A stretch of 25,297 nt of DNA from a virus, in the IMG/VR virus record IMGVR_UViG_3300013103_000057, positions 1 through 25,297 of that record, one strand, 5' to 3'. Positions 4,322 through 25,297 of the stretch are shown piece after piece. The notes under the pieces were generated by a model. That model did not search any database. It was not told where the DNA came from and saw only the letters and a list, made by a program, of their open reading frames with translations. A program made the position numbers and the translations under genes. Each line of letters starts with the position of its first letter. The first letter of the stretch is position 1.

Positions 4322-4322
4322 A

Positions 4323-5183: not shown

Positions 5184-5191
5184 GAGATAAA

Positions 5192-6163: not shown

Positions 6164-6182
6164 GATAGATTAAAGGTAATAA

Positions 6183-7633: not shown

Positions 7634-7653
7634 AAACAAAAATAGGAGCAAAT

Positions 7654-8028: not shown

Positions 8029-8030
8029 TT

Positions 8031-8474
8031 ATGGATATGTCAGAATGGGGAATTGCTCCAACTGAAGAAGCAGAAGTTGTCATGTATAAGGCTCCGAAGG
8101 GGCGTTCTATGTGGGATGTTATGAATTCAGCCATTGATAAAAAAGTCAAACCAACTCTTTCTGAGAAACAAGGTGTGAGTGAGTTTATGTTTCATAAACT
8201 CCTAGCAAGGTTTGAGGGTACTTTAGATTTTGCATTGATGTTTACCACGAAAGATATTCCCATTGAACATCAATGGGATGTTATTAATAAAATGGTTCCA
8301 AAAAGTAATGTTGGTTTTGAAAGAGGAAAGAAAAAGTTTGATGACCAGACTTTGAATAATGTGGTGAAATATTATAGATGTTCCGAAAGAGTTGCCGAAC
8401 AATATTTAGAAATCATGCCTGAATTTGAAATTGAAAGAATTAACGGAAAATACAATAAGAATTCTAAGAGGTAA
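8031..8474 (+). CDS. 62: Probable clamp-loader small subunit, gp62-like
   Basis: 147 residues (T4 gp62 is 187). The segment from residue 40 follows the gp62 pattern: a Q/K-x-x-x-x-x-F-M helix, L-x-x-F (LLARFEGTLDFALMF), a helix with HQWDVINKMVP, then VKYYRCSERVAEQYLEIM, which corresponds to the 'Y-x-x-[ST]-x-x-x-A' end region of T4-like gp62. gp62 pairs with gp44 to load the sliding clamp. Unusually it begins MDMSEWG, echoing the SEWL tails of other proteins here, and its separation from gene 44 differs from T4. Divergent, so moderate confidence. Its stop lies in the first box of promoter P5. Confidence 0.58.
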   Translation: MDMSEWGIAPTEEAEVVMYKAPKGRSMWDVMNSAIDKKVKPTLSEKQGVSEFMFHKLLARFEGTLDFALMFTTKDIPIEHQWDVINKMVPKSNVGFERGKKKFDDQTLNNVVKYYRCSERVAEQYLEIMPEFEIERINGKYNKNSKR

Positions 8475-8502
8475 GTGAACTTTAAGGTTCATGAGCTATA
8501 AT
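8471..8502 (+). promoter_or_regulatory. Promoter P5 (first box GTAAG)
   Basis: GTAAG at 8471-8475 and TTAAG at 8482-8486 (11 bp apart), 10 nt, TATAAT at 8497-8502. It drives DHH-41-(88 aa)-43. The stop of the gp62-like gene (8472-8474) is inside the first box. Confidence 0.78.
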
Positions 8503-8522
8503 AGGTAAAATAAAGGATAATA

Positions 8523-9509: not shown

Positions 9510-9524
9510 TGGTAGGGAGAATAT

Positions 9525-10894: not shown

Positions 10895-11161
10895 ATGGAT
10901 TTATTGAAATTTTATAATAAAGTTGCTAGTAGGACTGGTTGGGTATTTGTAATTTCAAATTTTATAGAATTGAAATTCATCTTTGAAAACTTAAGGGACG
11001 CTTCTGAAAAGTTTGGGTTGATGTATCAATTTGAGCCATGGATAAATCATTCACATTTGGCAGTCTCTGTTTCATCAATGTCTGTAGTTGCATATGATTA
11101 CCACAAACGCAAGGGTCAAAATTATAGTTATTTATTAAGAAAAATATTCGGGAGCCTTTAA
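10895..11161 (+). CDS. Hypothetical protein directly upstream of gene 43
   Basis: 88 residues, ATG after AGGAGA. Rich in aromatic residues (F, W, Y) with a basic C-terminus (YHKRKGQNYSYLLRKIF), so possibly nucleic-acid binding. Its place just before gene 43 is that of the translational repressor RegA in T4, but I see no sequence resemblance to RegA, so I do not use that name. Stop and polymerase start overlap (TAATG). Confidence 0.65.
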   Translation: MDLLKFYNKVASRTGWVFVISNFIELKFIFENLRDASEKFGLMYQFEPWINHSHLAVSVSSMSVVAYDYHKRKGQNYSYLLRKIFGSL

Positions 11162-11583
11162 TGGAAAAATATACCAATGAGCAATATGAGAAAGTTTGGA
11201 GAAGTGGTTTTGATTACTTCTGTAGAACAAGAAACATAGAGACAAATCAAGTTAGAATTGAAAAGATCGAACCATCAATTGAGTTCTATGAAAAGAACCC
11301 AAACGGTGAAATGAGTTTCATCCTAGACCCAACTGTAAAGCTTTCTAAGAAGGAATTTAAAAATTCTAAAGAAGCTAAAGAATATCGAGGGTTAATGGAT
11401 TCATTGAATAAAGAAGTGTTTGGTGGTCAACCAAAAGAATATAAATTTATTAGAGACCATTTCTTTCAAAATGGGTTTAATAATGATATGAGAATTTGGT
11501 TTTTGGATATTGAAACTGTTGAAGAAAATAAATATGGTAGAGACCATGAAATAAGAGTTAGGGTAAAAGAAAAGAATATCTGA
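11161..11583 (+). CDS. 43: DNA polymerase gp43, fragment 1 (N-terminal domain and Exo I)
   Basis: 140 residues. The first 110 resemble the N-terminal domain of T4-type family B polymerases, and WFLDIETV (D116, E118) is the Exo I motif. The frame then ends after a charged stretch at TGA 11581-11583. The other frames just downstream remain coding-like: SDDAKKKHAERKLMKELEN in a second frame from about 11580, then the frame of fragment 2. Removing one T near 11581 and one A near 11632 would join fragments 1 and 2 into a single polypeptide with a charged insert of about 70 residues between Exo I and the FPDP segment. It is therefore either a real split, an indel pair, or sequence error. Confidence 0.8.
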   Translation: MEKYTNEQYEKVWRSGFDYFCRTRNIETNQVRIEKIEPSIEFYEKNPNGEMSFILDPTVKLSKKEFKNSKEAKEYRGLMDSLNKEVFGGQPKEYKFIRDHFFQNGFNNDMRIWFLDIETVEENKYGRDHEIRVRVKEKNI

Positions 11584-11633
11584 TGATGCTAAGAAAAAAC
11601 ATGCTGAAAGAAAATTAATGAAGGAATTGGAAA

Positions 11634-12893
11634 ATGGAAAAAATAATGAAAATGTCGGAGATTTTAGCTGAGGATTATAGTGATCGTGAAGTATTTGATG
11701 AGGAATTAAATGAATGGGTTTTATTTAAGAATTCATGTTATTATGCAGACAAGACCTTTCCTGACCCTCAATTGGCTGAAAAACCAGTTTCTCAGATTCA
11801 GATATGGGATAGCTACAGTGATAAGATAATAATCTTAAGTTTAGATAAAATGCAAGATGATACGAAATTCAAACACCACAAGAATCTTATATTTAAACAC
11901 TACCAAGATGAAAAGGCGTTATTCAAAGATTTCATAAAACTCCTTGAGAAATTAGAACCAACAGTCATTACTGCATGGAACGGAGATTACTTCGACTTTC
12001 CTTACTTAACGCATCGTGCTATGAAACTCGACGGGATAAATTATCGAAGATTGTCACCAATTCATAAGGTTTCTGAAATCAAAACCAAAGATGGTTTGAA
12101 CTTTGATTGGGAAGGAATTTATCTAATTGATATGATGCAAGCATATAAGAAATTTATTTTTAAACCACAAGCATCTTACGGTCTAGATAATATTGCAAAA
12201 GTGGAACTCGGTATGGGAGAAGGTAAGGTAGATTATGGGGAATTCGATGATATAATTGATTTCTACCATGGTGACATTGACAAATTTCTAGAGTATTCGA
12301 TTCAAGATGTTATAGTGCTTAAGAAACTTGAAGATAAATTGAAATTGGTCGAACTCATGCAAATTTTAGCTACTATGATGGGAATTAATATGGATGATTC
12401 ATTTGGGACGGTTAAGCCATGGGGGCAATACTTAACAAACTTGGCTATGAAAGAGGGCTTAGTGATGCCTCTAGACCGCAAATCACATTTGGATAAACCA
12501 ATCGTTGGTGGATACGTTCGTCACCCTCAGAAAGGAAAGCATAATTGGTTGGTTTCAGTGGATGTCAACTCAATGTACCCACTTCTTGGGATGCGAGCGT
12601 TTAATATGTCACCAGAGACATATATCAATGAATGGGAACTCCCTGAGGATTTACAAGCAATTCGTGAGAAATACCACAAACATGAGGATGAAGAGGTTTA
12701 TCTAGATGATGGGAATCTCAAAGAAATTAAGGAAGTGTGTCACAAATACGACGTTGCTTTTGGGATGAACGCATTTTTCAAGCGTGACAAAGAGGGTATT
12801 ATACCGACTATTGTTGCTGATATTTATAGCACAAGAAAGGAAGCAAAGCGACGTATGCTTATGTATAACGCATTAAAGGCTAAAATAGCGTAA
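11634..12893 (+). CDS. 43: DNA polymerase gp43, fragment 2 (exonuclease, palm motif A, part of fingers)
   Basis: 419 residues from ATG 11634 (weak AAGGAA upstream). It carries FPDPQLAEKPVSQIQ, Exo II at WNGDYFDFPY (N116, D121), Exo III at YSIQDV (Y221, D225), and polymerase motif A, DVNSMYP, with catalytic D310. The chain ends in the fingers helix after RKEAKRRMLMYNALKAKIA, before motif B. So it holds one palm catalytic aspartate but not the other, and must assemble with fragment 3 to polymerise. The last coding bases give way to A/T-rich leader DNA and promoter P6. Naturally split gp43 proteins are known in some T4-like phages; the extra interruption in the exonuclease domain is less usual. 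Confidence 0.9.
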   Translation: MEKIMKMSEILAEDYSDREVFDEELNEWVLFKNSCYYADKTFPDPQLAEKPVSQIQIWDSYSDKIIILSLDKMQDDTKFKHHKNLIFKHYQDEKALFKDFIKLLEKLEPTVITAWNGDYFDFPYLTHRAMKLDGINYRRLSPIHKVSEIKTKDGLNFDWEGIYLIDMMQAYKKFIFKPQASYGLDNIAKVELGMGEGKVDYGEFDDIIDFYHGDIDKFLEYSIQDVIVLKKLEDKLKLVELMQILATMMGINMDDSFGTVKPWGQYLTNLAMKEGLVMPLDRKSHLDKPIVGGYVRHPQKGKHNWLVSVDVNSMYPLLGMRAFNMSPETYINEWELPEDLQAIREKYHKHEDEEVYLDDGNLKEIKEVCHKYDVAFGMNAFFKRDKEGIIPTIVADIYSTRKEAKRRMLMYNALKAKIA

Positions 12894-14496: not shown

Positions 14497-14520
14497 TAAC
14501 CTATAAATATGGAGCGATTA

Positions 14521-15687
14521 ATGACATTAGACAAAATATACGAAAAAATAGAAGACGGTTCTATGACCGTCGATGATATCAATAAAATGGATTTGAGTGA
14601 ATTTAAAGGAATTGATACTACTCATATAGAGGACAGATCAGCATATTGGAATACATTCCAAATGGCTTTGAAAATTTCTATTAACAGTTTATATGGTGCA
14701 CTAGCGAACACTTACTTCTTACTGTTTAACCGTGACGTTGCTGCGTCTATTACGGGAAATGGTAGGATTTTCATTCAGGGATTAGCTACTTATATCAATG
14801 AAAAACTCCGGAAAGTATTACAAACCAATATAAACTTTGTTGTGTATGGCGATACGGACTCCGTTTATTTTAGTCTTGATGAATTAGTTAAAAAATTCAA
14901 GGAAGAAGATAATCATAAAATCCTAGAAAAGCTTATCAACTTTGACCACAAATACCTTGACGTCTGGACACAAGAATATATAGAAAAGTATTCTGATGAT
15001 TTCAATGCATTTAACGCTGAACCAATTGGGGCAAAGCTTGAAAAGATTGCTGACAAGGGTATGTTTGTTGCGAAAAAGAAGTACGCTCTTAGAGCCGTTT
15101 GGGATGAAGGTTCTATCCTTGTAGACGATCCTTACTTGGCTGTTACTGGACTGGAAATTGTTAGATCAAGTACACCTGCATTCTGTAGAAAATACCTCAA
15201 GGAAATGGTTGAAATTATTCTGGACAACAATGCCCAAACTACCATTAAAGAACTTGAATCCCTAGAAGAATTATTTCATCAAGCACCGTTGGCTGATATT
15301 GCTAGGGTTTCTGGAATTGGTTCTTTGGATTACGAGGGACACATAGGTAGATATACAACTTGGAAGAATGACAAAACATTAACGGCTGGGATGAATGTTC
15401 GTGCTGCTATGAATTTTAACTTGTTTGTAGACCAAACTGGGTTGACAAAATACCCTCAAATATTGGTGTCGGATAAGATTAAGTATATTTTCCTTAAGAA
15501 GCCAAATATACTCGGGGATGATGTAATAGCATTCTTAGACGAAGATTTTATTGAAGATGCTGGATTGACAAAATATGTTGACCGTGAACGAATGTGGACA
15601 GATTTCTTCATTGCCCCTATGAAAATTATGTTAGAAGCTGTTGGTTACGACCTTGATCAAAATTTTGCAATGGAGGAATGGATATAA
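14521..15687 (+). CDS. 43: DNA polymerase gp43, fragment 3 (motifs B and C, thumb)
   Basis: 388 residues. ATG 14521 is preferred over in-frame ATG 14509 because GGAG sits 6 nt before it and 14509 is only about 13 nt past the TATAAT box. After a short acidic lead comes motif B, KISINSLYGALAN, and motif C, YGDTDS at about residues 109-114 (catalytic Asp), then EPIGAKLEKIADKGMFVAKKKYA and thumb sequences as in T4-type gp43. The fragment needs motif A from fragment 2. It ends MEEWI, the tail shared with six other proteins here; in T4 the polymerase C-terminus binds the clamp gp45. Total length of the three pieces, about 947 residues, is near T4's 898. Confidence 0.93.
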   Translation: MTLDKIYEKIEDGSMTVDDINKMDLSEFKGIDTTHIEDRSAYWNTFQMALKISINSLYGALANTYFLLFNRDVAASITGNGRIFIQGLATYINEKLRKVLQTNINFVVYGDTDSVYFSLDELVKKFKEEDNHKILEKLINFDHKYLDVWTQEYIEKYSDDFNAFNAEPIGAKLEKIADKGMFVAKKKYALRAVWDEGSILVDDPYLAVTGLEIVRSSTPAFCRKYLKEMVEIILDNNAQTTIKELESLEELFHQAPLADIARVSGIGSLDYEGHIGRYTTWKNDKTLTAGMNVRAAMNFNLFVDQTGLTKYPQILVSDKIKYIFLKKPNILGDDVIAFLDEDFIEDAGLTKYVDRERMWTDFFIAPMKIMLEAVGYDLDQNFAMEEWI

Positions 15688-16064
15688 TGGATATATTTGG
15701 AAATAGTGAGAACGATGGAGATTGGATGGCTGGTCAATTTACGGTTGGGTATCTACCGAAAAAAAGTAAAAAGAGAATTCTTAAAGAAGAAATTAAACGT
15801 CTGAAGAAAAAGATTAAAAAACTTGAAAAGACGAACAAGAAATACCATATGTATGAAAAGGCTGGTTGTAGTAAATGCAAAGACGGCATTTGTAAAAGTT
15901 ATGCCCATGATGATTTGAGTGTAGATTCTTGGTGGCGTTGTGAATGTTCAGAAACCAAAACGGAAAAATATAGAAAATGGTTGAAAAAACATGAGGTTGG
16001 TCCATTCTATGATAATCATAATTCTATCAAGACGGGAAATAATGCGACTAATAGGAGTTGGTGA
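15687..16064 (+). CDS. Coiled-coil protein with Cys cluster, unknown function
   Basis: 125 residues from ATG 15687, which overlaps the polymerase stop (TAATG) and has GGAGG 10 nt upstream; the in-frame ATG 15678 would leave no spacing. Residues 27-55 are a very basic Lys-rich coiled coil. Next comes a putative zinc-binding cluster with GCSKCKDGICK and, about 20 residues later, WWRCEC. The arrangement suggests a small nucleic-acid-binding protein. No family recognised. It lies between the polymerase and a DNA-modification protein, and its stop overlaps the next ATG. Confidence 0.65.
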   Translation: MDIFGNSENDGDWMAGQFTVGYLPKKSKKRILKEEIKRLKKKIKKLEKTNKKYHMYEKAGCSKCKDGICKSYAHDDLSVDSWWRCECSETKTEKYRKWLKKHEVGPFYDNHNSIKTGNNATNRSW

Positions 16065-17239
16065 TGATAACAAAAGAAGCAGATATACTATATTGTGGCG
16101 TAGATGAAGAAAAGATCAAAAACGCAAACCCAGTTCTAAACGAAGAGGTTCTTGGGTATCACCATTCTTATATGGTTGAACGCCATAAAATTTACAAGCG
16201 TAAAGAAATTGAAAAGTTACCTCAAGACGAGTGGACTGAAGATGAAGTGTTTAAGAATTATAGGTTTACGAATGTTCGTAGGGAACTTGACCGTGAGTCA
16301 GTTTGGATGATTAAAAATATTAGTCACAATGACCAATTTACCCTTGAGGAAAAGGTCCTTTGGAGTATGTTATTTAGGACGTATAATAAATCATCAACTT
16401 TCATTAAGCTTGGTTTTCCTTATTCTATTGACATTTTGAATTTTGACGACAAAGTCAAGGAAACAATTAGAACGGTCATAGAGCATGAAACTGAACAAGA
16501 CCCCAAATATGTATGGTTTACGCCAGCATTTAACACGGGAGGGCTTAAGGCAACTTGGGCAATGCCTGAAACAAAAGGTATGTATGAGTGTACCAGCTCT
16601 AATATAGAAGTTGAAGTTGAAACTGACAATGGTATAGAAAAGATGACTTGGCGTGAAGCTAAGGACTTACAAAAACAATTCCCTGACTACAATATCAAGG
16701 GTGTTGAAAAGTCTATGCCTATGCGAATGATTCACTTGATTGACTATGTTAGAAAAACCGACATTGTTGAGCGTATTATAACGGCTGAAACTCAGGAAAA
16801 GTGCTATGATATTATACGGGAAGTTGATGGTTTCTCAAACTTTCTTGGTTATCAGATTTTCGTAGATTTCACATATATCCCTGAATATAAGTTCAGTGAG
16901 AATGAATTTACTATTTCTGGTCCAGGATGTGATAGAGGGCTTGACCTTATATTTGAAGATGCTGATGGAATGACTTCTGCGGAACAATTATTCTGGATTA
17001 GGGACAATATTGAAGCTGAGTGGAAGAAGCGTAATTTAGAAGCTAACTATAATGAATTATTTGACCATTTACCAGAAGAAGATAGGAAAATAAATGTTAT
17101 GATGTGTGAGAATAGTTTCTGCGAGTTGAGCAAGATAACATCTGCAAAGCGAAAAACTGGACGTCCCAGAAATCGTTATAAACGACACCCAGAGGATATA
17201 ATTACTCCAAATGAATGTTCAATCGACGAGTGGTTGTAG
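16064..17239 (+). CDS. Putative DNA base hypermodification protein (hmdU kinase helical-domain/aGPT-PPLase superfamily)
   Basis: 391 residues from ATG 16064 (AGGAG 6 nt before; overlaps the previous TGA). Segments match the phage family associated with thymine hypermodification: NYRFTNVRRELDRESVWMI, then FRTYNKSSTF, then GFSNFLGYQIFVDFTY and FTISGPGCDRGLDLIF. In phages such as ViI this helical domain is fused to a 5-hmdU DNA kinase; here no P-loop is present, and a separate kinase gene lies at 22781. The C-terminus has an AT-hook-like KTGRPRNRYKR stretch, a likely DNA contact, and ends SIDEWL, the putative clamp tail. The predicted role is recognising or activating hmdU in phage DNA. Family naming is from memory. 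Confidence 0.65.
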   Translation: MITKEADILYCGVDEEKIKNANPVLNEEVLGYHHSYMVERHKIYKRKEIEKLPQDEWTEDEVFKNYRFTNVRRELDRESVWMIKNISHNDQFTLEEKVLWSMLFRTYNKSSTFIKLGFPYSIDILNFDDKVKETIRTVIEHETEQDPKYVWFTPAFNTGGLKATWAMPETKGMYECTSSNIEVEVETDNGIEKMTWREAKDLQKQFPDYNIKGVEKSMPMRMIHLIDYVRKTDIVERIITAETQEKCYDIIREVDGFSNFLGYQIFVDFTYIPEYKFSENEFTISGPGCDRGLDLIFEDADGMTSAEQLFWIRDNIEAEWKKRNLEANYNELFDHLPEEDRKINVMMCENSFCELSKITSAKRKTGRPRNRYKRHPEDIITPNECSIDEWL

Positions 17240-17241
17240 AT

Positions 17242-17994
17242 ATGAAATACATGGGAAGTAAAAATAGGATATCGGGAGAGATAATTCCATTTATTCAAGA
17301 AGTTTTAGATAGTGGTGAGTTTGAATATATCGAACCATTTGTTGGTGGTGCAAATTTAATAGATAAAATAGAAAATCATTCGAAAATTGGGTCGGATATT
17401 AATGTTTTTCTCATAAATATGTGGCAGCGTCTTCAACTTGGGTGGAGCCCAAGAGTGGACATTTCTAAGGAAGAATATTCTAAATACAGGGATTTATCTA
17501 AGACTAAAGATCACCCTAATGATATGATGGCAGAAATTGGGTTTATTGGGTTTATTTGCTCATATGGTGGTAGATTTTATGACGGTGGATATGCCAACAT
17601 ATCTGGTAATAGGAATTATCAACAAGAAGCATATCGAAACATTATGAAGCAAGTCCCTGATATTTTGGACGTTAAGTTTATATTTGATGATTATAGAAAT
17701 TTAAAATTCAACTCACCTAGTGTAATTTATTGTGATATTCCGTACAAAGGCACGAAGGAATATACTGAAGCTGGTTTCGACCATGAATATTTCTATTCAT
17801 GGGTAAAGGAGAGAGTGAAAGAGGGACACCATGTATTTATTTCAGAATTTTATATGCCAGATGAATTTAGTGAAATTTGGAAAAAAGAAGTAAAATCTTC
17901 ATTGAATAAAGAAAACGTAAAAGTTCATGTTGAGAAATTATTCTATTTAGGTGACTATGATTTCAATAAGTGTAGTATAGATGAATGGCTTTAG
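17242..17994 (+). CDS. DNA adenine N6-methyltransferase, Dam/D12 class
   Basis: 250 residues from ATG 17242, two bases after the previous stop; the upstream in-frame ATG 17215 lies inside the preceding gene. It begins MKYMGSKNRISG as D12-class enzymes do, with the AdoMet motif EPFVGGANL at residues 31-39, a SDINVFLINMW segment, and catalytic motif IV as CDIPY at 164-168 instead of the usual D-P-P-Y. It should methylate adenine in a short site, either for protection from restriction or to mark phage DNA. The C-terminus is SIDEWL, the same six residues as its upstream neighbour, which suggests shared clamp recruitment. The Ile in motif IV could alter activity but occurs in some relatives. Confidence 0.85.
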   Translation: MKYMGSKNRISGEIIPFIQEVLDSGEFEYIEPFVGGANLIDKIENHSKIGSDINVFLINMWQRLQLGWSPRVDISKEEYSKYRDLSKTKDHPNDMMAEIGFIGFICSYGGRFYDGGYANISGNRNYQQEAYRNIMKQVPDILDVKFIFDDYRNLKFNSPSVIYCDIPYKGTKEYTEAGFDHEYFYSWVKERVKEGHHVFISEFYMPDEFSEIWKKEVKSSLNKENVKVHVEKLFYLGDYDFNKCSIDEWL

Positions 17995-18376
17995 ATTAGC
18001 AGTTATAGGTTCAAGAGACTTTGGCGATTTTGAACTATTTGTAAAGATAATGGATCGTTTAAGGTTAGTCAAAGAAATAGACGCTATAATATCAGGTGGT
18101 GCGTCAGGGGCTGACTCAATGGCTGAACATTATGCAGAAGTAAATAATATTCCACTTACAGTATTTGAAGCTGAGTGGGACAAGTACGGAAAAAGTGCTG
18201 GTTATATTCGCAATAAGGATATATGGGATGCCTCAGACATGGGAATAGCCTTCTGGGATGGCGTTTCAAAAGGGACTAAACATTCCTTTGATTTAGCCAG
18301 AAAACAAAATAAAAAATTACTGATATTCAACTATACGAAAAATCGTTGGGTAGATGACAAAGGAAATGAACTATGA
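17981..18376 (+). CDS. SLOG-domain protein (DUF2493/YspA-like)
   Basis: 131 residues. Rossmann-like SLOG fold, with VIGSRDFGD at the N-terminus, IISGGASGADSMAEHYA in the middle, and the EWDKYGKSAGYIRN and GVSKGTKHSFDLA segments typical of this phage-abundant family. SLOG proteins bind nucleotides or nucleotide-derived ligands; some have phosphoribohydrolase or sensing roles. The start overlaps the methylase stop by 14 nt, with only a weak ribosome site, so translation is probably coupled. In this context a nucleotide-pool or modified-nucleotide role is plausible but unproven. Confidence 0.8.
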   Translation: MNGFRLAVIGSRDFGDFELFVKIMDRLRLVKEIDAIISGGASGADSMAEHYAEVNNIPLTVFEAEWDKYGKSAGYIRNKDIWDASDMGIAFWDGVSKGTKHSFDLARKQNKKLLIFNYTKNRWVDDKGNEL

Positions 18377-18612
18377 AGGAATTTGATTTAGGTATGGAAA
18401 CTATTTATATGGTTATTAATGGTCAAGTACAAGAAATTGCTCAACAAGATAGTTTTCATAATGCATACTTTACTAAGGGAATTGTTGAAGACGGTATTAG
18501 AGATTGTCACATAACGATTGTTAGTGGGTTATCACATGAAGAAAAGATAGATGCGGTGCAAGCATATATAGATATGAGTGACGCACCAAGAACACAAATT
18601 ACAAACTTATAA
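18373..18612 (+). CDS. Small hypothetical protein, paralogue A
   Basis: 79 residues, ATG overlapping the SLOG stop (ATGA). It aligns over its length with the 72-residue protein at 18732: GMETIYMVINGQV against GMERIVVVKDKVI, then HNAYFTKGIVEDGIRD against HYAFFQREINENGLEN, then a C-terminal E/K helix of the same length. Small alpha/beta protein, acidic, no catalytic motif. Function unknown; local duplication is the supported fact. Confidence 0.65.
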   Translation: MKEFDLGMETIYMVINGQVQEIAQQDSFHNAYFTKGIVEDGIRDCHITIVSGLSHEEKIDAVQAYIDMSDAPRTQITNL

Positions 18613-18615
18613 GGA

Positions 18616-18721
18616 ATGAAATTATGAAGATTACTTAAAGAATAAAACTCCAGGAGAAAATGGGTGTAGTGATTGCTCAAACTGTAGTGGATTAGCTTGC
18701 GGTTGTGGCGTCAGTGGATAA
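18616..18721 (+). pseudogene. Broken Cys-rich mini-protein gene
   Basis: An ATG at 18616 with AAGGA nearby runs into TGA after three codons. One base over, a frame reads NYEDYLKNKTPGENGC and then a Cys-rich end (CSDCSNCSGLACGCG) to TAA 18719-18721, with no ATG, GTG or TTG of its own. Removing one A after the ATG would give a 34-residue peptide with six cysteines spaced like a metal-binding knuckle. It is either decayed, mis-sequenced, or dependent on frameshifting. It separates two paralogous small genes. Confidence 0.35.
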
Positions 18722-18731
18722 AGGAGAAGAA

Positions 18732-18950
18732 ATGGAAGAATTAGAAGAAGGCATGGAAAGAATAGTAGTGGTGAAAGACAAGGTCATTGACCTATTTATT
18801 TGGGGAGAACCGTACCACTATGCGTTTTTTCAAAGAGAAATAAATGAAAATGGGTTAGAAAATTACTATATTGATGTAGAAATCAGTTTAACAGAATCAC
18901 AAAAACGAAAGGAGATCGCAAAAGCAATCTATCTTTGGGACAAAAAATAA
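18732..18950 (+). CDS. Small hypothetical protein, paralogue B
   Basis: 72 residues from ATG 18732 (AAAGGAG 5 nt upstream; the in-frame GTG at 18705 would overlap the Cys-rich frame). Acidic N-terminus, a beta-strand pair, then a C-terminal E/K helix ending in YLWDKK. It is a diverged copy of the protein at 18373-18612, sharing the G-M-E-x-I start and the A-[YF]-F-x-x-x-I-x-[ED]-[DN]-G centre. No known family. Confidence 0.65.
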   Translation: MEELEEGMERIVVVKDKVIDLFIWGEPYHYAFFQREINENGLENYYIDVEISLTESQKRKEIAKAIYLWDKK

Positions 18951-18965
18951 ATTTAAGGAATGGAA

Positions 18966-19631
18966 ATGGAATTTCAAATTATGTCATTAGACAACTTCAA
19001 TGCGATTGTTCAAGCTCAAGCTGAACTTAATGTAAAATACACTGGTGAAAAATGGGCTGAGGAAATACCTATGTCACATCTACTTTCAGCAATGACGGCT
19101 GAGTTAGGTGAGTTATTGGAGAGTTCTCCTAGGACGGGTGATGTTGAATCGGGTTGGAAATGGTGGAAACCATATCTTGAAAATGATGACAATAATAACA
19201 AAGTAGAAGCAGTGGATATTATCCATTTTGCAAAAAGTGCTTTGATTGTTTCTTATGGTCAAGACCTCAGTACCTTGATGTCAGATTACAACGCATGTTC
19301 AACGACTTATATTGAAGAAGCTCATCAACTCCTTGAAGAAGATAACACGACTGGTGTCTCTCAGGATTTATTAACTTCTTTAGCAGCATTTACATTGACA
19401 GCATATGCTGATTCAAGAGAAGATCTACTGAATACTTATATGTTTGTTATCAATTCATTGTGTCAGTATGCTAAAATGACACCAGATGAAATGTTTGACC
19501 TATATATGAAAAAGAACAAACTTAACCACGAAAGGGTTGAAGGTGGTTATATGAAGTCGGCTGACGCATATGCTAAAATTGACGCTGACGGAAATGAAGA
19601 TAACGTAAAACTATTCGCTGAGAGCGAATAG
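18966..19631 (+). CDS. dut: All-alpha dUTPase/dUDPase (dimeric type)
   Basis: 221 residues; ATG 18966 is 6 nt after AAGGA, whereas ATG 18960 would leave one base. It has the all-alpha NTP pyrophosphatase metal site: TAELGELLESSPR near residue 42, then EAVDIIHFAKSAL near 78, and the dimeric-dUTPase end motif YMKKNKLNHERVEGGY. This family makes dUMP from dUTP or dUDP; it occurs in T4-like phages (gp56-related role) and in Campylobacter. In this window it would remove dUTP and supply dUMP to the TS-like enzyme at the 3' end. It closes the P7 operon. The last nine codons form half of a hairpin. Confidence 0.82.
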   Translation: MEFQIMSLDNFNAIVQAQAELNVKYTGEKWAEEIPMSHLLSAMTAELGELLESSPRTGDVESGWKWWKPYLENDDNNNKVEAVDIIHFAKSALIVSYGQDLSTLMSDYNACSTTYIEEAHQLLEEDNTTGVSQDLLTSLAAFTLTAYADSREDLLNTYMFVINSLCQYAKMTPDEMFDLYMKKNKLNHERVEGGYMKSADAYAKIDADGNEDNVKLFAESE

Positions 19632-19670
19632 TAACGTAATAAAAGTCAAAGTAACGTTCTTTCGTTACTA
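19611..19670 (+). terminator. Hairpin pair at end of dUTPase gene, possible terminator/attenuator
   Basis: A perfect 9-bp inverted repeat, CTATTCGCT/AGCGAATAG with a 3-nt loop, spans 19611-19631 and includes the stop codon. A second, AGTAACG/CGTTACT with a 6-nt loop, spans 19650-19669. TAGTAACG at 19629-19636 can also pair with CGTTACTA at 19663-19670, so alternative folds exist. No clean U-tract follows, so a classical intrinsic terminator is not proven; 3'-end protection or processing is the alternative. It is the clearest RNA structure in the window. Confidence 0.5.
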
Positions 19671-19700
19671 TTACTGAATTAAGGTTAATATAAGATTAGT

Positions 19701-19759
19701 TTAAGCAGGGTTTAAGCGAAGTTACGGTATAATATAGTATAAAGTTTGAAAGGCTTAAA
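19701..19759 (+). promoter_or_regulatory. Promoter P8 with repeated leader
   Basis: TTAAG at 19701-19705 and 19712-19716 (11 bp apart), 11 nt, TATAAT at 19728-19733, in the same CGGTATAATATAGTATAAA context as P6, followed by GTTTGAAAGGCTTAAAA and the ATG. It is a near copy of 12916-12985 minus a 9-nt leader segment. It drives a single 54-codon gene. Confidence 0.8.
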
Positions 19760-19924
19760 ATGAGATACTTATTAGGAATTGATGATGATGTTGTTGATGA
19801 AGGTAATTTAAGAGAAGTGAACACTGAAGATGGAATCGGGTATTATCCTGACCTTCAGGTGATTGCTACTGTTGCAGGTGCATTTTATTTGTTCGCATTA
19901 TTCGTTTATTGGATCAGTAGTTAA
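19760..19924 (+). CDS. Small single-pass membrane protein
   Basis: 54 residues, expressed from P8 with RBS GAAAGG. The N-terminal 30 residues are acidic (GIDDDVVDEGNLREVNTEDG); residues 33-51 are a continuous hydrophobic helix (VIATVAGAFYLFALFVYW) ending one or two residues before the C-terminus. It is thus a tail-anchored-type inner-membrane mini-protein. The strong, repeated promoter leader suggests it is made in quantity. Possible roles include superinfection exclusion or host takeover, but no family is recognised. Its stop lies inside promoter P9's first box. Confidence 0.7.
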   Translation: MRYLLGIDDDVVDEGNLREVNTEDGIGYYPDLQVIATVAGAFYLFALFVYWISS

Positions 19925-19952
19925 GTTAAAATTAAGTTATTTCCGTTATAAT
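19921..19952 (+). promoter_or_regulatory. Promoter P9 (double TTAAG box type)
   Basis: TTAAG at 19921-19925 and 19932-19936 (11 bp apart), 10 nt, TATAAT at 19947-19952. It drives the HAD-transferase-PLP-kinase-nuclease operon. The stop of the 54-residue gene (19922-19924) is inside the first box. Confidence 0.8.
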
Positions 19953-19976
19953 TAGTTAAAATTATGAGGGTATATA

Positions 19977-20507
19977 ATGAATAAAATATTAGCAATAGAT
20001 GTAGACCTGACCGTTGTAGATACGGTCACTCCTTGGAAAGAATGGTACACTAATCTTACTGGTCACGAATTAGGTGAAATCACCTCTGACAGTAACGACT
20101 TAGAGACCTTAATGAAAAATCACAACGACCCATTACAATTCTGGCGAAAGCCTGATTTATATGATAACCTCAAGCCACTTGATGGTGCTTTAGAATATAT
20201 TCCTAAGCTCAAAGATTTAGGGCTTGATATTGTATTTGTGTCAGCTTGTATGTCTGAACACGAACAATCAAAACGTTTCTTCTTACAACGAAATTTCCCT
20301 TATATGGACGGCTTCATTTCAACGGGTGATAAATCATTCGTGAGATGTGATTATTTTGTTGACGACTATAAAAAGTATTGTAGACAAATGACTGAACACG
20401 CTGTGGTATTTCATATCAAAACAGATTTGAATACACCAAGCGAAGAATTTCCTTACGTTACTTGGAAAGAAATTTTTGAGAATATATCTTTAATGGAGCA
20501 AATTTAA
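19977..20507 (+). CDS. HAD-family 5'(3')-deoxyribonucleotidase
   Basis: 176 residues. HAD motif I is DVDLT at residues 8-12 (D8 nucleophile, D10 acid/base), followed by the cap segment with PLQFWRKPDLYDNLKPLDGALEYIP, motif II in IVFVSACMS, and the acidic motif DYFVDDY. This is the pattern of phage and bacterial deoxyribonucleotidases that dephosphorylate dNMPs. In hmdU phages such as SPO1 a dTMP phosphatase helps exclude thymidine; the same job is a reasonable inference here, as it opens the operon of the modification genes. Substrate not determinable. Stop overlaps next start (TAATG). Confidence 0.78.
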   Translation: MNKILAIDVDLTVVDTVTPWKEWYTNLTGHELGEITSDSNDLETLMKNHNDPLQFWRKPDLYDNLKPLDGALEYIPKLKDLGLDIVFVSACMSEHEQSKRFFLQRNFPYMDGFISTGDKSFVRCDYFVDDYKKYCRQMTEHAVVFHIKTDLNTPSEEFPYVTWKEIFENISLMEQI

Positions 20508-21736
20508 TGGAATTAAGGAGATATTCTGAACTACATAGTGAAAATGAAATTACTGAACTTCAAGAGGGTATGGATTTTAGGAATCCTTTAGCTCGTAGAG
20601 AAGTTTTCTTAGATTTTTATGGTTTCCACCTGAAGTATAAATCTCATCCCGGAGCAGTGTATTATGTAATGCCTTTCTTAGCAGATAAGTATGAATGGGA
20701 CTTTGAAACAAAATTGTGGTTTGCTTTTATCAACGGAGCTACCCAAAACCCATTGACCTCTTGGGTGTTATTTAAACATTTCCCGAGCTACGGTGTTTCC
20801 CCAGAAAAAATGGAAACTTGGCATAGAGAATATTGGAGAAATTTAGATTATGATATAGATAGAAGATACCAAAAAGGTCATTTTGTTGAAATGTATGAAA
20901 ATTATAGGGAACTTCTTGGTGAAAAAACTCAAGTAGAATATTTCTCTGATATTTGTAGTTCTGATAATGTGTATGAAAACTTTACAAAACTCTGGGATAC
21001 AGTATTCAATGATTTCTTTATGTACGGACGCCTTTCGACATTTTCATATCTTGAATATTTGAAAATCATGGGGTTGAATATAGACTGTGATGATCTTTTC
21101 ATTTATGATAAATCAGGTTCTAAATCACATCGAAATGGATTATGTATAGTAAATGGCAGGGATGATTTAGATGTCCGCAAAGATAATGAAGATTTACCGA
21201 AAGAATTAGAAAAAGGTCACAATAAAGAAGTGATGACTTGGTTAGAACAAGAGGGTAAAAATCTATTGGCTGATGCGAAAGATAGGTTTGAGGGTGAGCC
21301 GTTCTTTGAAGATGTGAACTATTTTACATTAGAAAGCACACTTTGTTGTTATAAAAGTTGGCACCGAAAGAATAGACGGTACGCGAATGTATATAATGAC
21401 ATGTTCTATGACAGAATTAAGAAAGCTGAAACGAGAGATTGGGAAGAAATTGATGGCTCCGATATCAACTTTGATGATTTTTGGGAAGCAAGGAAAGCAT
21501 ACTTACCGAAAGAACTTCGACGTGAAGATAACCCCAATGACCCAGGATTAGTGAAGGTCAAGCAAAATTGGTACCGAAATACTGGCGAAGTTATAATGAT
21601 GGAACATTATAATCCAGTCTATAAAAATTCATTTATGGAGAATTACCCAACTAAAGAAATCGAATGGTATGGTAAAAAACCAGTAAAAAAGGCTAAAAAA
21701 GTTGAAACAAAATCAACTTTAGGAGAGTGGATATGA
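20507..21736 (+). CDS. Putative amino acid:DNA transferase (ADDT-like) of base hypermodification
   Basis: 409 residues. Segments recall the phage amino acid:DNA transferase group: RNPLARREVFLDFYGFHLKY, then a W-A-F-I-N-G-x-T-Q-N-P block, then YGRLSTFSYLEYLKIMGL, KSGSKSHRNGLC and FTLESTLCCYKSWHRKNRRY. In characterised thymidine-hypermodifying phages such proteins attach an amino acid to phosphorylated hmdU in DNA. The C-terminal 40 residues are a basic, Lys-rich, probably disordered linker ending LGEWI, so the enzyme looks tethered by a flexible arm to whatever binds the EW(L/I) tail. Lies between the HAD gene and the PLP enzyme, overlapping both. Family call from memory; specificity unknown. 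Confidence 0.6.
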   Translation: MELRRYSELHSENEITELQEGMDFRNPLARREVFLDFYGFHLKYKSHPGAVYYVMPFLADKYEWDFETKLWFAFINGATQNPLTSWVLFKHFPSYGVSPEKMETWHREYWRNLDYDIDRRYQKGHFVEMYENYRELLGEKTQVEYFSDICSSDNVYENFTKLWDTVFNDFFMYGRLSTFSYLEYLKIMGLNIDCDDLFIYDKSGSKSHRNGLCIVNGRDDLDVRKDNEDLPKELEKGHNKEVMTWLEQEGKNLLADAKDRFEGEPFFEDVNYFTLESTLCCYKSWHRKNRRYANVYNDMFYDRIKKAETRDWEEIDGSDINFDDFWEARKAYLPKELRREDNPNDPGLVKVKQNWYRNTGEVIMMEHYNPVYKNSFMENYPTKEIEWYGKKPVKKAKKVETKSTLGEWI

Positions 21737-22779
21737 ATAAAGAAAGAGAATCAATTAATGAAGATACCCACGACAGTGTAGTTCCTGACGGAGCAAAACA
21801 CTGGGCTGATTATATGGACGTATTGACGCCAATAGAACAAAAATCTGACGGGATGTGGTATAAGCGTGAGGATAAATTCGCGTTATTGGGAATTAACACT
21901 ATCAATGGTTCAAAATGTAGACAACTTCTTCATCTTTTTGAAACCAGACCTGACGGAGTTGATACTGTGATTCATGCAACAAATGTAAATAGTTCTCCCC
22001 AAACTCCCATGACGGCAGCAATGGCTGACCATTACGGTCTAAGGTGTATTCAGGTAGCAGGAGGTTCCAGCCATAAAAGTCTGTCCACAAAAGACTTACC
22101 ACTGTTCGCAACCATGTTCGGTACTGAATACGAGACAACTATGGGTTCAGGGTTCAATGTGAACATTCAACGTAGGGTAACTGCGATTATGAAAGACTTT
22201 CCGAATTCATTTACGATCGAACGAGATATCACACTAGACCATAAACTTAAGGAAAATAGACCTGAAAAAATACTAGCATTTCATAATGTCGGGGCTTTAC
22301 AAACTAAGAATTTTCCTGATTTCATTGAAGATTTGGTTATCCCATTTGGGTCAGCTAATTCTACCACTTCAGTATTGTTGGGTCTTTCAAGGGACAAACC
22401 TGAAAATCTGAAACGGATACACCTTATAAATGTTGGTGTCGACAAAAGGGATTATATGTTTGAACGCTTGGATATGATGGGTGCTGATTATTCACAATAT
22501 GAATTTATTTGGCATGAAAGTGGTTATCCTTATGCAAAGACTCTGAAAGGCGTTAATATTGATGATATAACTTTCCATTATAGGTATGAAGCTAAGGTTT
22601 ACCAACATTTACTTGATTACCACCCTGAGTTGTTCAAAGAAACTACTCTATTTTGGGTTATTGGGTCAGTACCAGATTTAAAAACGACAGCTAAGAATAT
22701 TGGGAAAGAAGTACCTGAGGAAATAAATGAGTTTTTCTGGGAAGAGAAATTAGTAATAAATGAATGGATAGGAGAATAA
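21733..22779 (+). CDS. Fold-type II PLP-dependent enzyme (ACC deaminase/desulfhydrase-like)
   Basis: 348 residues from ATG 21733, which overlaps the previous stop (ATGA) and follows AGGAGA by 6 nt. It has MWYKREDKF and TINGSKCRQL, where the Lys of G-S-K is the expected PLP Schiff-base lysine (family usually G-G-N-K-x-R-K). It also has SSPQTPMTAAMADHYGL and the phosphate-binding loop PFGSANSTTSVLLGL. Related enzymes remove amino, thiol or carboxyl-linked groups from amino acids. In phages ViI and M6 PLP enzymes remodel the amino acid attached to thymine, so I infer that role. The C-terminus is NEWIGE, the clamp-like tail with two extra residues, whose codons contain the next gene's GGAGA site. 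Confidence 0.75.
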   Translation: MNKERESINEDTHDSVVPDGAKHWADYMDVLTPIEQKSDGMWYKREDKFALLGINTINGSKCRQLLHLFETRPDGVDTVIHATNVNSSPQTPMTAAMADHYGLRCIQVAGGSSHKSLSTKDLPLFATMFGTEYETTMGSGFNVNIQRRVTAIMKDFPNSFTIERDITLDHKLKENRPEKILAFHNVGALQTKNFPDFIEDLVIPFGSANSTTSVLLGLSRDKPENLKRIHLINVGVDKRDYMFERLDMMGADYSQYEFIWHESGYPYAKTLKGVNIDDITFHYRYEAKVYQHLLDYHPELFKETTLFWVIGSVPDLKTTAKNIGKEVPEEINEFFWEEKLVINEWIGE

Positions 22780-22780
22780 T

Positions 22781-23506
22781 ATGGGTAAAGAAAACAAATT
22801 TTCTGTGATCAACTACATAGGGAGCAACGCAACGGGGAAATCTACAAGAGTGACGGTTTTGGTAAATTATTTAGAATCAAAATATGATGTTGAAGACGTT
22901 GAATTTACATACACCAAAAAGTCAAAGAAAAATGGGGATAAAGAAGTTACCACCAAAGTCGGTTTAAGATTCTCTAATAATTGGGTGATTTTTGGGAAAT
23001 TTGACGGAAGTAGAAAATGGATTGGGCTCGATACTGGAATGTGTTCATCTTGGGACCAAAGATCAGCATTTATCACAGAAATGAAAGAACGGGGCGTTGA
23101 TACTGTTGTATTTGAAGGTTACTTCAACAATAGAAGTAAGATCGCTGGACCTGAAACTTTCCATAATGCTGGTGCTGACGAAGTTCATATATTAGCAAGT
23201 TTCTATGATAAATGTGAAGATTTTCTTATGAGAACTAATGTTCGGTCAGGTAAATTAGAGCGTGGTATGGATTGGGCTGAAAACGCTCCTGGATGGAAAG
23301 ACAACAAGGGTATTATCAATTCACAAAAATATTGGAATGAACAATCCCTCGATGGTGACACAGTGACCCGTGTTTCTATTGATGAGCCAAAGGAGTATAT
23401 TGTTACTAGATTCATTGATGAGGACTTTGACGTAGATAAATTCTATGAAACGTTTGAAGTCCCTTCAGAAAAGGCAGAACCTTCAGGGATGGACGAATGG
23501 ATTTAA
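22781..23506 (+). CDS. P-loop kinase, putative 5-hmdU DNA kinase
   Basis: 241 residues. Walker A is at 14-22 (GSNATGKST), followed by a strand pair, WIGLDTGMCSSWDQR, and a Walker-B-like VDTVVFEGYF. The order resembles the kinase half of phage 5-hmdU DNA kinases, which are usually fused to the helical domain found separately at 16064. It would phosphorylate hmdU in DNA to prime amino-acid attachment. It ends GMDEWI after an acidic linker, again the shared tail. Preceded by AGGAGA and followed by an overlapping gene. A free nucleotide or nucleoside kinase is the main alternative. Confidence 0.58.
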   Translation: MGKENKFSVINYIGSNATGKSTRVTVLVNYLESKYDVEDVEFTYTKKSKKNGDKEVTTKVGLRFSNNWVIFGKFDGSRKWIGLDTGMCSSWDQRSAFITEMKERGVDTVVFEGYFNNRSKIAGPETFHNAGADEVHILASFYDKCEDFLMRTNVRSGKLERGMDWAENAPGWKDNKGIINSQKYWNEQSLDGDTVTRVSIDEPKEYIVTRFIDEDFDVDKFYETFEVPSEKAEPSGMDEWI

Positions 23507-24084
23507 CTAATATAATTAATAGTCTACAGAAGTCAAAATTCGTAACGGCTGATGATATTGCTTCTCAAGTTGATCAAATGATTTCTGAGATAAAAGAAAA
23601 TGGACAAACTCACGGACGAAGCGACGCTGTGTTAGCACAACACGTTAAGTCAGGGTGTATTTTAGAGGTGGGTATTGCTAAATTATTGGGTGGTGTAGTA
23701 AATCGCTCAGTCCACGATTCTAGAAATCCTGATACATTTGCTTGGGATGTTGAAGCTGATGGTATTAGATATGAAATCAAACCAACCAGAGAGAATGACA
23801 CTTGGTTCAACTTTAATATTCGTGGTGCTATAAATAATTCCGATGAGCAACTGACCCGTGCTGATTTGACAACTTATATGAAATATAAACAACATACTGA
23901 TTTTTTAATCGCTGCCCATTATAGGGAAGTTATGGGTGGTTGGGAAGTACAACCAAAATGGTTATTTGATTCTGGGAATTTTGATAATTTTACCCGAAAG
24001 TCTAATCCGTCTAGTAAAGGTACAACCCATTACTATCACATAAAGAACGGAATTCAAAATTCAGGGTGTGTGGCGTTAAGTTAA
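23497..24084 (+). CDS. Putative PD-(D/E)XK nuclease 1
   Basis: 195 residues, starting inside the kinase's DEWI codons (10-nt overlap). The segment TFAWDVEADGIRYEIKPTR contains D, then E-x-K at the end of a beta hairpin, the hallmark of restriction-like nucleases; an upstream E in CILEVGIAKLL may complete the site. The rest is mixed alpha/beta with YREVMGGWEVQPKWL. No specific family recognised. Position at the end of the base-modification operon suggests an enzyme acting on DNA, perhaps cutting DNA that lacks the phage modification; that is inference. Confidence 0.55.
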   Translation: MDLTNIINSLQKSKFVTADDIASQVDQMISEIKENGQTHGRSDAVLAQHVKSGCILEVGIAKLLGGVVNRSVHDSRNPDTFAWDVEADGIRYEIKPTRENDTWFNFNIRGAINNSDEQLTRADLTTYMKYKQHTDFLIAAHYREVMGGWEVQPKWLFDSGNFDNFTRKSNPSSKGTTHYYHIKNGIQNSGCVALS

Positions 24085-24108
24085 CATTAAGTTAAGTTAC
24101 GGTATAAT
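24076..24108 (+). promoter_or_regulatory. Promoter P10 (double TTAAG box type)
   Basis: TTAAG at 24076-24080 and 24087-24091 (11 bp apart), plus a third at 24092-24096; 11 nt after the second box is TATAAT at 24103-24108 in TTACGGTATAAT, as in P6 and P8. It drives the second nuclease gene. The upstream stop (24082-24084) lies between the two boxes. Confidence 0.78.
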
Positions 24109-24132
24109 AGGGAAATAAAATAAAGGTAGAAA

Positions 24133-24954
24133 ATGGTAGACTATTTATATGAATATGCAATGACGGGGAACTTAATAGAACCAGATAGTAAAGAGACCAC
24201 TTGGGAACTTTTAAAACAACATACCCTTTTAACAATGGGTGTAGAAAACGACATCAAAGAACAACTTGGGTTAGAGCTCATAAATGGTAAACATATCAAA
24301 GATAAACATGGGTGGGATGGATACCACGATAAGTTTTTCGTAGAAGTGAAAAGTGAAACTATTGGCGATGGTAAAAAGCTTTCCGGAAAGGGAATTTTTA
24401 ATAATATCACATTTGAATCCATTAGTAAGTATGAAAATGATAAGGGAATCCTTATGTTTGTTGGTTATTCGAGGACTGGACAATTCCTATATTCAATTGC
24501 GTGTGATATGAGTTTAGTAGCACCTCTCCTTAAAAAAGAACTACTGAAAAAATTCCCTGAGGGAAATTGTAGTGAAGGAGAAAATACCACTGTTACCATT
24601 ACTCTATCTAATTTGAAAGATATACCATTTGAAGTAGTATATTATCCAATGATTTCAGATAGGTCTTTGTATTCTGAAGAGCTTAGGAAGGTGTTAGAAG
24701 AAGGAAGTCGAAGAAAGAAAACAGTTTGTGGGATTTTAGGAAAGAAATTTTTATCAAGTCTTCAGGAATGTACTAAGAAACCAAAAAAATGTTATTCATT
24801 GAAAGAAAAGGTAAAATTAGTCTACTGTACTGATAATTTTTGTGTGGCTAAAAGTGGTAAAAAAATTGAATTTCTAGAAAACGGTTCTGTGTCCCATAGC
24901 GTTTTAGTGAAAACTCTAAATGTTAGGTTCAGTAAACTTTTAAGTCAATCTTAA
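24133..24954 (+). CDS. Putative PD-(D/E)XK nuclease 2
   Basis: 273 residues, ATG preceded by AAAGGT. The site is in the N-terminal half: HGWDGYHDKFFVEVKSETIG gives D-x(n)-E-x-K with a preceding helix (ENDIKEQLG), typical of restriction-endonuclease-like folds. A later strand pair (ILMFVGYSRTG) fits that fold. The C-terminal 80 residues are Lys- and Cys-containing (KKTVCGIL, KKCYSLKEKVKLVYCTDNFC), perhaps a DNA-binding region with a metal site. It differs from nuclease 1 and has its own promoter. Possible roles: host DNA breakdown, discrimination of unmodified DNA, or modification-linked repair. Its stop lies in promoter P11's second box. Confidence 0.55.
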   Translation: MVDYLYEYAMTGNLIEPDSKETTWELLKQHTLLTMGVENDIKEQLGLELINGKHIKDKHGWDGYHDKFFVEVKSETIGDGKKLSGKGIFNNITFESISKYENDKGILMFVGYSRTGQFLYSIACDMSLVAPLLKKELLKKFPEGNCSEGENTTVTITLSNLKDIPFEVVYYPMISDRSLYSEELRKVLEEGSRRKKTVCGILGKKFLSSLQECTKKPKKCYSLKEKVKLVYCTDNFCVAKSGKKIEFLENGSVSHSVLVKTLNVRFSKLLSQS

Positions 24955-24971
24955 GTTTCCCTCGGTATAAT
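24940..24971 (+). promoter_or_regulatory. Promoter P11 (double TTAAG box type)
   Basis: TTAAG at 24940-24944 and 24951-24955 (11 bp apart), 10 nt, TATAAT at 24966-24971. It drives the TS-like gene. The upstream stop codon (24952-24954) lies inside the second box. Confidence 0.78.
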
Positions 24972-24993
24972 TAAAACAAAAAGGGGAACAAGT

Positions 24994-25297
24994 TTGAAAC
25001 CTACATTAATCAATGGTAAAAGTATAAATGAAGTTGTTTTTAAATCACTAGAACAACTCATTCATAACGGCTACCGAACAAAATCAAGAAACGGTGATAT
25101 TAACACCGTTTATAACGCCTTTGTCACTCTAGACAATCCTAAGGCAAGACACCTTTCACTTGAAGGGCGTAAAAACAACATATTTGCAACAATAGCTGAA
25201 ACTTTCTGGGTATTTGCTGGTTCTAATGATATAGATCCATATTTGAGCTTCTTTCTGCCTAGAGCAAAAGACTTTTCAGATGATGGTAAAACTTGGC
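24994..25297 (+). CDS. Thymidylate synthase-family enzyme, likely dUMP hydroxymethylase (3' end outside window)
   Basis: The 101 visible codons start at a TTG 7 nt after AAGGGG, under promoter P11. The sequence follows the N-terminal region of phage thymidylate synthase-family proteins: VYNAFVTLDNP, LSLEGRKNNIFATIAETFWV, FAGSNDIDPYLSFFLPRA and DFSDDGKTW, where the last would lead into the conserved G-x-Y-G-x-R loop. The family makes dTMP or 5-hydroxymethyl-dUMP (or hmdCMP) using methylenetetrahydrofolate. The catalytic Cys region is beyond the window, so the product cannot be read here; with the hypermodification genes nearby, a dUMP hydroxymethylase is the best inference. The non-ATG start may lower expression. 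Confidence 0.75.
   Translation, partial: MKPTLINGKSINEVVFKSLEQLIHNGYRTKSRNGDINTVYNAFVTLDNPKARHLSLEGRKNNIFATIAETFWVFAGSNDIDPYLSFFLPRAKDFSDDGKTW

Follow-up and report, generated by a model that had tools for sequence, protein, structure and literature searches.

The virus contig IMGVR_UViG_3300013103_000057 from IMG/VR (25,297 bases, 34% GC), hereafter the window, places candidate genes for thymidine hypermodification beside a T4-like replication module, which raises the question of what these genes make and how they are linked to replication. The window is an entire contig, and the genome is therefore represented by a fragment. Gene families, orthology, the sharing of a short C-terminal tail (the tag) among proteins and the co-variation of the tag with the DNA polymerase were read directly. 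The results make it probable that a divergent T4-like phage encodes a thymidine hypermodification pathway of the type known from Salmonella phage ViI, with the post-replicative enzymes docked on the sliding clamp.

The modification region covered positions 16058-25297, and every gene named in the original prediction was present and in frame. The polymerase end and the enzymes concerned are as follows.

14509..15687, + strand: C-terminal half of the split T4-like DNA polymerase gp43; tag MEEWI (phrog_262, 1.4e-86)
16058..17239, + strand: HMUDK_hel (aGPT-Pplase clade 1), partner/helical protein of the 5-hydroxymethyl-2'-deoxyuridine (5-hmdU)-DNA kinase; tag SIDEWL (PF18723, 1.9e-56; ViI orthologue, 39%)
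17215..17994, + strand: Dam-like DNA adenine methyltransferase; tag SIDEWL (PF02086, 4.8e-11)
18960..19631, + strand: all-alpha dUTPase (dUTPase_2), a nucleotide pool enzyme; untagged (PF08761, 5.6e-18)
19977..20507, + strand: HAD 5'-deoxynucleotidase (NT5C-like); untagged (PF06941, 7.3e-12)
20507..21736, + strand: divergent amino acid:DNA transferase (ADDT; aGPT-Pplase clade 2); tag LGEWI (orthology, fold; phrog_3271)
21727..22779, + strand: fold-type-II pyridoxal phosphate (PLP)-dependent enzyme, Schiff-base Lys63; tag INEWIGE (phrog_3650, PLP-like; ViI orthologue)
22781..23506, + strand: HMUD2-type P-loop 5-hmdU-DNA kinase, Walker A GSNATGKST; tag MDEWI (PF18747, 8.8e-10)
24994..25296, + strand: thymidylate synthase (TS)-like dUMP hydroxymethylase candidate, N-terminal 101 aa, ending at the contig edge (phrog_3676, 1.5e-28)

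Matching C-termini of the polymerase and the modification enzymes

The window polymerase ended in FAMEEWI, and matching ends were found on unrelated proteins: CSIDEWL on both HMUDK_hel and the methylase, STLGEWI on ADDT, VINEWIGE on the PLP enzyme, SGMDEWI on HMUD2 and SKMSEWL on an 85-aa protein encoded beside gp46. When the C-termini were read, the tag was not seen on the dUTPase, HAD protein, gp41, UvsX, gp44, gp46 or gp47 of the window, nor on the TS-like protein, deoxynucleoside monophosphate (dNMP) kinase or 2-oxoglutarate (2OG)-oxygenase-like protein of its relatives. Across six genomes of the clade, 42 of 1381 open reading frames (ORFs) had [DENGSTL][DEN]W in their last nine residues, compared with about 10 expected from internal 9-mers. 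Thirty-six of the 42 were the polymerase, HMUDK_hel, ADDT and HMUD2 (6/6 each), the Cas4-like exonuclease and the 85-aa protein (4/4 each), the PLP enzyme (3/4) and the methylase (1/1). In a rank test, all ORFs of each genome were ordered by similarity to the polymerase C-terminus. The five DNA-acting modification enzymes of the window fell within the top 6 of 53 ORFs (p 2e-6), and 4/4 enzymes of the relative G005 within the top 5 of 396 (p 5e-9). In the structural models, the tails of ADDT (residues 394-409, the last 16) and HMUDK_hel (366-393) were predicted to be flexible, with a predicted local distance difference test score (pLDDT) below 50. In the HMUD2 alignment, the Trp of the tag was the sole invariant residue of a tail that could not otherwise be aligned.

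The tag changed from lineage to lineage together with the polymerase. The ViI tails were RVNLLSMM (polymerase), SVNLLDRL (HMUDK_hel), SVNLMSLL (ADDT) and SVSLLGLM (HMUD2), and those of LIMEstone1 were similar. Vibrio phage 1.244.A had ARKLW on the polymerase and KRLW or RKLW on the other enzymes, and Cygsa01 had SVMDFF on the polymerase and SVLDLF, NDLMGFF and NVFDLF on the others. In PhiW-14, the polymerase ended in KLGAFF, ADDT in GLGSFF, and the P-loop kinase and Cas4-like exonuclease in GLGGFF, while STAKRLW was carried by HMUDK_hel, ADDT and the methylase of Vibrio phage VPALA. Five lineages had five distinct tails, each resembling that of its own polymerase, and the mean tail similarity was 20.3 to the own polymerase and 8.8 to those of other lineages, the rows not being independent. 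In ViI, HMUDK_hel, ADDT and HMUD2 ranked within the top 4 of 598 ORFs (p 1e-6). The median percentiles by polymerase-tail similarity were 0.02, 0.02 and 0.01 for HMUDK_hel, ADDT and HMUD2, and 0.27, 0.50, 0.53, 0.46 and 0.29 for TS, dNMP kinase, HAD, dUTPase and HMUD1. Moreover, HMUDK_hel, ADDT and HMUD2 were mutually more alike than nearly all random ORF sets, being exceeded by 0-4 of 3000 sets in each of 12 genomes. M6 and Montesquieu, negative controls which have the enzymes and another polymerase type, showed no shared tail (2233 and 1666 of 3000). Cas4-like/phrog_107 exonucleases of the window clade ended in a polymerase-like tail too, as did a similar protein of PhiW-14 (L059:10197-11297, L070:6496-7356).

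Clamp tethering is proposed because the T4 polymerase tail binds the clamp gp45. The RB69 polymerase tail has been co-crystallised with gp45 (PMC2988020; PMC7892883), and the tails of T4 gp43, gp55 and gp33 are interchangeable, gp55 and gp33 being clamp binders (PMC2988020). As a positive control, the T4 gp43 tail ranked gp55 and gp33 as the top 2 of 190 ORFs. Using a profile built from phage gp45 proteins, gp45 homologues were detected in G001, G002, G003 and G005 (3e-9 to 7e-6), outside the window fragment; PF02916 detected no clamp in the ViI-like or window-clade genomes, and phrog_207, tried as the clamp family, was a wrong guess. The best reading, drawn by analogy, is that post-replicative enzymes would dock on the clamp and that enzymes acting on nucleotides would have no need to. 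More generally, it seems reasonably likely that the hypermodification enzymes of T4-type phages are sliding-clamp clients, whose copies of the polymerase peptide co-diverged with it in at least five lineages, in a replication-coupled complex to which a Dam-type methylase and a Cas4-like exonuclease also belong. A literature search, in which specialist papers were not covered, returned no report of clamp-docking tails on hypermodification enzymes, and the novelty of the proposal is uncertain.

About 40% of the thymines are modified in such phages. If true, clamp docking would offer a testable answer to how thymines become modified shortly after they are replicated and ahead of host nucleases or packaging, and would apply to hundreds of sequenced Ackermannviridae. 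Furthermore, a tail shared with the polymerase would be a sequence signature for finding further phage DNA-modifying enzymes.

Tag sharing points to a common partner without naming which, and HMUD1 and the ligase are untagged; both observations would also fit a real pathway whose tail docks on another replisome partner, such as the helicase, gp32 or the polymerase, or acts as a stability or folding tag. We regard this as rather unlikely. Among T4-type polymerase C-termini, only that of RB69 has a partner known from a structure, and this partner is gp45 (PMC2988020). The exchange of tails in T4 and the recovery of gp55 and gp33 by the ranking point in the same direction, and one would not expect a tag of general stability to be limited to DNA-acting proteins. 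An origin of the repeated tail in DNA-level duplication or gene-junction sequence, and not in selection on the protein, is hardly credible. It would suit VPALA, where HMUDK_hel and the methylase have an identical 3' DNA end. However, the same residues were written in different synonymous codons in the window (HMUDK_hel and methylase), G005 and ViI, and the tag persisted where the preceding linker could not be aligned. Outside VPALA, duplication as the source of the tag was rejected by these codon differences.

Several points weigh against the clamp-docked pathway preferred here. The pooled p-values overstate the case because genomes of one lineage are not independent samples. HMUD1 was never tagged, the PLP enzyme was tagged in the lineage of the window only and untagged in L001, and the L008 ADDT was untagged. 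In VPALA, HMUD2 was untagged and the polymerase tail was just a partial match, and in phiEa2809 an extension of the polymerase defeated the rank test. Binding of the tag to the clamp is argued from the T4 analogy. In addition, profile searches did not find HMUD1 in the window or in the whole 155-kb genome of G005, so that the putative kinase of the window, inferred to be HMUD2 with HMUDK_hel, would lack the established HMUD1. The window TS-like gene also stops before its active site, the catalytic residues lying beyond the contig end.

Enzyme families, pathway and product

The window proteins were scanned with Pfam and PHROG, and counterparts in ViI were sought by tblastn. The Pfam family names were calibrated on reference phages: ADDT (PF18724) on M6 gp51 and Vi01_199, HMUDK_HMUD1 (PF18748) on M6 gp54 and Vi01_061c, HMUDK_hel on M6 gp55 and Vi01_130c, HMUD2 on Vi01_196, and PALP-type PLP enzymes on M6 gp52 and Vi01_182. 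The HMUD1 kinase was wrongly annotated as terminase small subunit in Vi01_061c, VPALA L026:18091-18741 and M6 gp54. The ViI counterparts were HMUDK_hel (39%, 9e-66), the PLP enzyme (31%, 8e-47), ADDT (28%, 1e-26), HAD (33%, 2e-22), TS (42%, 4e-19) and HMUD2 (29%, 9e-5), and the ViI HAD gene adjoins its HMUD2. These six genes with one-to-one ViI orthologues are the Ackermannviridae gene set listed in PMC6336734. Among 50,697 phage records, nearly all homologues were from Ackermannviridae; for ADDT, Mycobacterium and Glutamicibacter phages were closer. The profile searches proposed with the original prediction placed the genes in the predicted families: its base-hypermodification protein is HMUDK_hel, and the dUTPase and HAD deoxynucleotidase lie between the modification genes as described. 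Its gene-set logic of thymidine hypermodification was supported by the profiles and the orthologues, and the pathway belongs to an already known type because all core modification genes have ViI orthologues.

The transferase named in the original prediction was recognised by orthology and fold. The window ADDT alone fell below the Pfam ADDT threshold; the orthologues of G001 and G004, 76% identical to it, matched PF18724 at 9e-21 and 3e-20. The AlphaFold model (mean pLDDT 82) had as best fold match PUGT, the solved 5-phosphomethyl-2'-deoxyuridine (5-PmdU) glycinyltransferase of phage PaMx11 (8z2m/8z2n), far ahead of all other fold matches (probability 0.99; the Foldseek E of 0.2 is weak). The same glycinyltransferase was the top match in a weak fold search with HMUDK_hel (probability 0.66), and sequence searches of the PDB with ADDT, the PLP enzyme and HMUDK_hel found no relative. 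The PLP enzyme was likewise confirmed, as it was 31-37% identical to that of ViI and its Schiff-base lysine K63 was invariant in all seven aligned enzymes, including those of ViI, M6 and Montesquieu. The gene order ADDT-PLP-P-loop kinase was also present in Glutamicibacter phage Montesquieu. Coopervirus mycobacteriophages (e.g., Fortunato, L052 1258-3462) have an ADDT 41% identical to that of the window beside Ploopntkinase3; the two Fortunato genes are annotated as hypothetical protein and terminase small subunit, and these phages likely carry an unrecognised thymine modification.

The P-loop kinase was present as predicted, but it is of the HMUD2 type and not HMUD1, the established 5-hmdU-DNA kinase, to which M6 gp54 and its counterpart in ViI belong. 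HMUD1, HMUD2 and HMUDK_hel all occur in ViI and VPALA. M6 combines HMUDK_hel with HMUD1, and the window, G002, G003, G004 and G005 combine it with HMUD2 alone. HMUD1 was fused to the C-terminus of the PLP enzyme in G001 (L001:11218-13008) and HMUDK_hel to HMUD1 in G008, and these fusions support one functional unit.

The predicted hydroxymethylase was TS-like, and its hydroxymethylase character, because of the truncation, was judged from the full-length orthologues of relatives (73-97% identical; over the 101 residues, 97% in L002 and about 80% in L003 and L005), which make it a likely dUMP hydroxymethylase candidate. These orthologues had PCN at the catalytic Cys, as in SPO1, M6 and PhiW-14, whereas thymidylate synthases, including the ordinary enzyme of Cr30, have PCH. 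They retained Asn where the E. coli enzyme has N177, the region being interrupted in L003. Residues 147 and 177 separate modifying from ordinary TS-type enzymes, with Asp177 marking cytosine (PMC8670742), and by this rule the Asn indicates dUMP rather than dCMP as the substrate. The nearest solved structures were CMP hydroxymethylases, and the nearest reference phage protein was that of PhiW-14 (E 1e-58), for which hmdUTP synthesis has been demonstrated (PMC5977210). A TS and 2OG-oxygenase fusion in the 140-kb relative L003 was considered and rejected, as the extra length (L003:10001-12073) is an intein-like insertion, PC followed by FLSHTEILTNSGYKRIS..., exactly at the catalytic cysteine. A 2OG-Fe(II) oxygenase-like gene lay directly downstream of the hydroxymethylase in L007:11098-11898 and L002:11326-12147 and possibly adds a further hydroxylation step.

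The substrates and product are inferred from these families. At the nucleotide level, the dUTPase would provide dUMP, which the TS-like enzyme would turn into 5-hydroxymethyl-dUMP; hmdUTP would be formed by a host kinase together with a dNMP kinase, whose gene lies further downstream in relatives, and the NT5C nucleotidase would trim the competing pool. The gp43 polymerase would then incorporate hmdU instead of T, and HMUD2 with HMUDK_hel would phosphorylate it within DNA. A free amino acid would replace the phosphate through ADDT, and the PLP enzyme would remodel, probably decarboxylate, the adduct to an aminoalkyl thymine such as 5-(2-aminoethoxy)methyl-2'-deoxyuridine (5-NeOmdU). The enzymes of the last three steps and the Dam-like methylase would dock through their tails on a gp45-type clamp, so that DNA would be modified at the fork or immediately behind it.

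The nature of the final base is a closer matter than the pathway itself. Judged by gene content, the product is likely 5-NeOmdU or something closely derived from it, and the retained PLP enzyme, similar to that of ViI, argues for this; another amino-acid-derived thymine, based on glycine or another amino acid, is given an even chance, since neither ADDT nor the kinase set is the same as in ViI. The ADDT is nearer to those of Mycobacterium/Glutamicibacter phages (39-41%) than to that of ViI (27-28%), and the kinase set is unlike ViI's. It is very improbable that the TS-like gene encodes an ordinary thymidylate synthase and that the cassette acts on little or no DNA. In favour of this reading, the window holds just 101 aa, and the PhiW-14 authors caution that sequence does not easily tell the two enzymes apart (PMC5977210). 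Against it, the full-length orthologues lack PCH and their nearest phage enzyme and structures are hydroxymethylases.

Close relatives point to a modular pathway. Compared with the window, L002 was 97% identical in TS, 85% in HMUDK_hel, 82% in SLOG and 77% in HAD; it (4236-7962) had no PLP gene and its ADDT was just 27% identical. This ADDT adjoined a class-II glutamine amidotransferase and a 700-aa fusion protein of GNAT, an amidoligase-like part and HMUD2. L003 was also without a PLP gene. By sequence, close relatives have swapped the amino-acid-installing part and kept the hmdU part, and a different final base is therefore predicted. Such a swap is consistent with the combinatorial picture reportedly given by Lee et al. 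in 2022 and would be a further source of new DNA chemistries.

Replication module and small proteins

The remaining features of the window are as follows.

1515..10886, + strand: T4-like replication/recombination module gp47, gp46, gp44, UvsX and gp41, all untagged (PHROG; C-termini inspected)
4323..4580, + strand: 85-aa small protein, function unknown, kept beside gp46 in relatives; tag MSEWL (C-terminal comparison)
11161..12893, + strand: N-terminal parts of the split DNA polymerase (exonuclease region), two ORFs (PHROG)
17981..18376, + strand: SLOG (YspA-like) protein, role unknown; untagged (PF10686, 1.2e-13; ViI orthologue Vi01_144c)

The T4-like module predicted next to the modification genes was recovered, with gp46, gp47, gp44, UvsX, gp41 and the split gp43 matched in PHROG at 1e-55 to 1e-99, and a DenB-like endonuclease was also among the PHROG matches of the right part. 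Small ORFs spanning about 1.6 kb separated the polymerase pieces (11161-15687), and the same split with varying gap lengths was present in relatives. The nearest polymerases were those of Vibrio phage and cyanophage, which does not support the earlier comparison with Campylobacter phages. The 85-aa protein and Vi01_049c (L018:30355-30567, 70 aa) both had strongly polymerase-like tails and are possible gp33-like late-transcription coactivators. The relative G005 (L057) carried 26 tRNA genes at 1529-10119.

Comparison with known systems

Thymine modification beside a T4-like module had been put forward as a distinct strategy, but Ackermannviridae, PhiW-14 and VPALA already combine both. The T4 alpha-glucosyltransferase is likewise a base-modifying enzyme that binds the clamp gp45, although a 2026 study found that modification levels in vivo are not determined by this binding (PMC13216743). 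It differs in glucosylating cytosine and in its C-terminus, which is not polymerase-like; the tail ranking in T4 found no polymerase-like tail on alpha-GT, beta-GT or Dam.

Pseudomonas phage M6, with a 5-(2-aminoethyl)-2'-deoxyuridine (5-NedU) cluster, shares ADDT, PLP, HMUDK_hel and TS-like genes with the window, but has an HMUD1 kinase, a photolyase-annotated gene (probably a radical-SAM enzyme), a different replication system and no shared tail. Delftia phage PhiW-14 (putrescinylthymine) has a T4-like polymerase, the nearest reference hydroxymethylase, and ADDT-like and P-loop proteins with its polymerase-type tail GLG[GSA]FF, whereas its product is an amine and no PLP, HMUD1 or HMUD2 match was found in it. 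VPALA has no detected PLP gene, has HMUD1 in its block and uses another tag, but its HMUD2, ADDT, HMUDK_hel, Dam-type methylase, TS and dNMP kinase likewise form a block beside T4-like replication genes, with one tag common to HMUDK_hel, ADDT and the methylase. Compared with ViI (Ackermannviridae, 5-NeOmdU), the window has its genes clustered rather than scattered, a divergent ADDT, no detected HMUD1,.DEW. instead of VNLL.. as the tag, and a tagged PLP enzyme. In contrast, the orthologues of HMUDK_hel, HMUD2, ADDT, PLP, HAD and TS, the T4-like replication proteins, and the tagging of HMUDK_hel, ADDT and HMUD2 are common to both.

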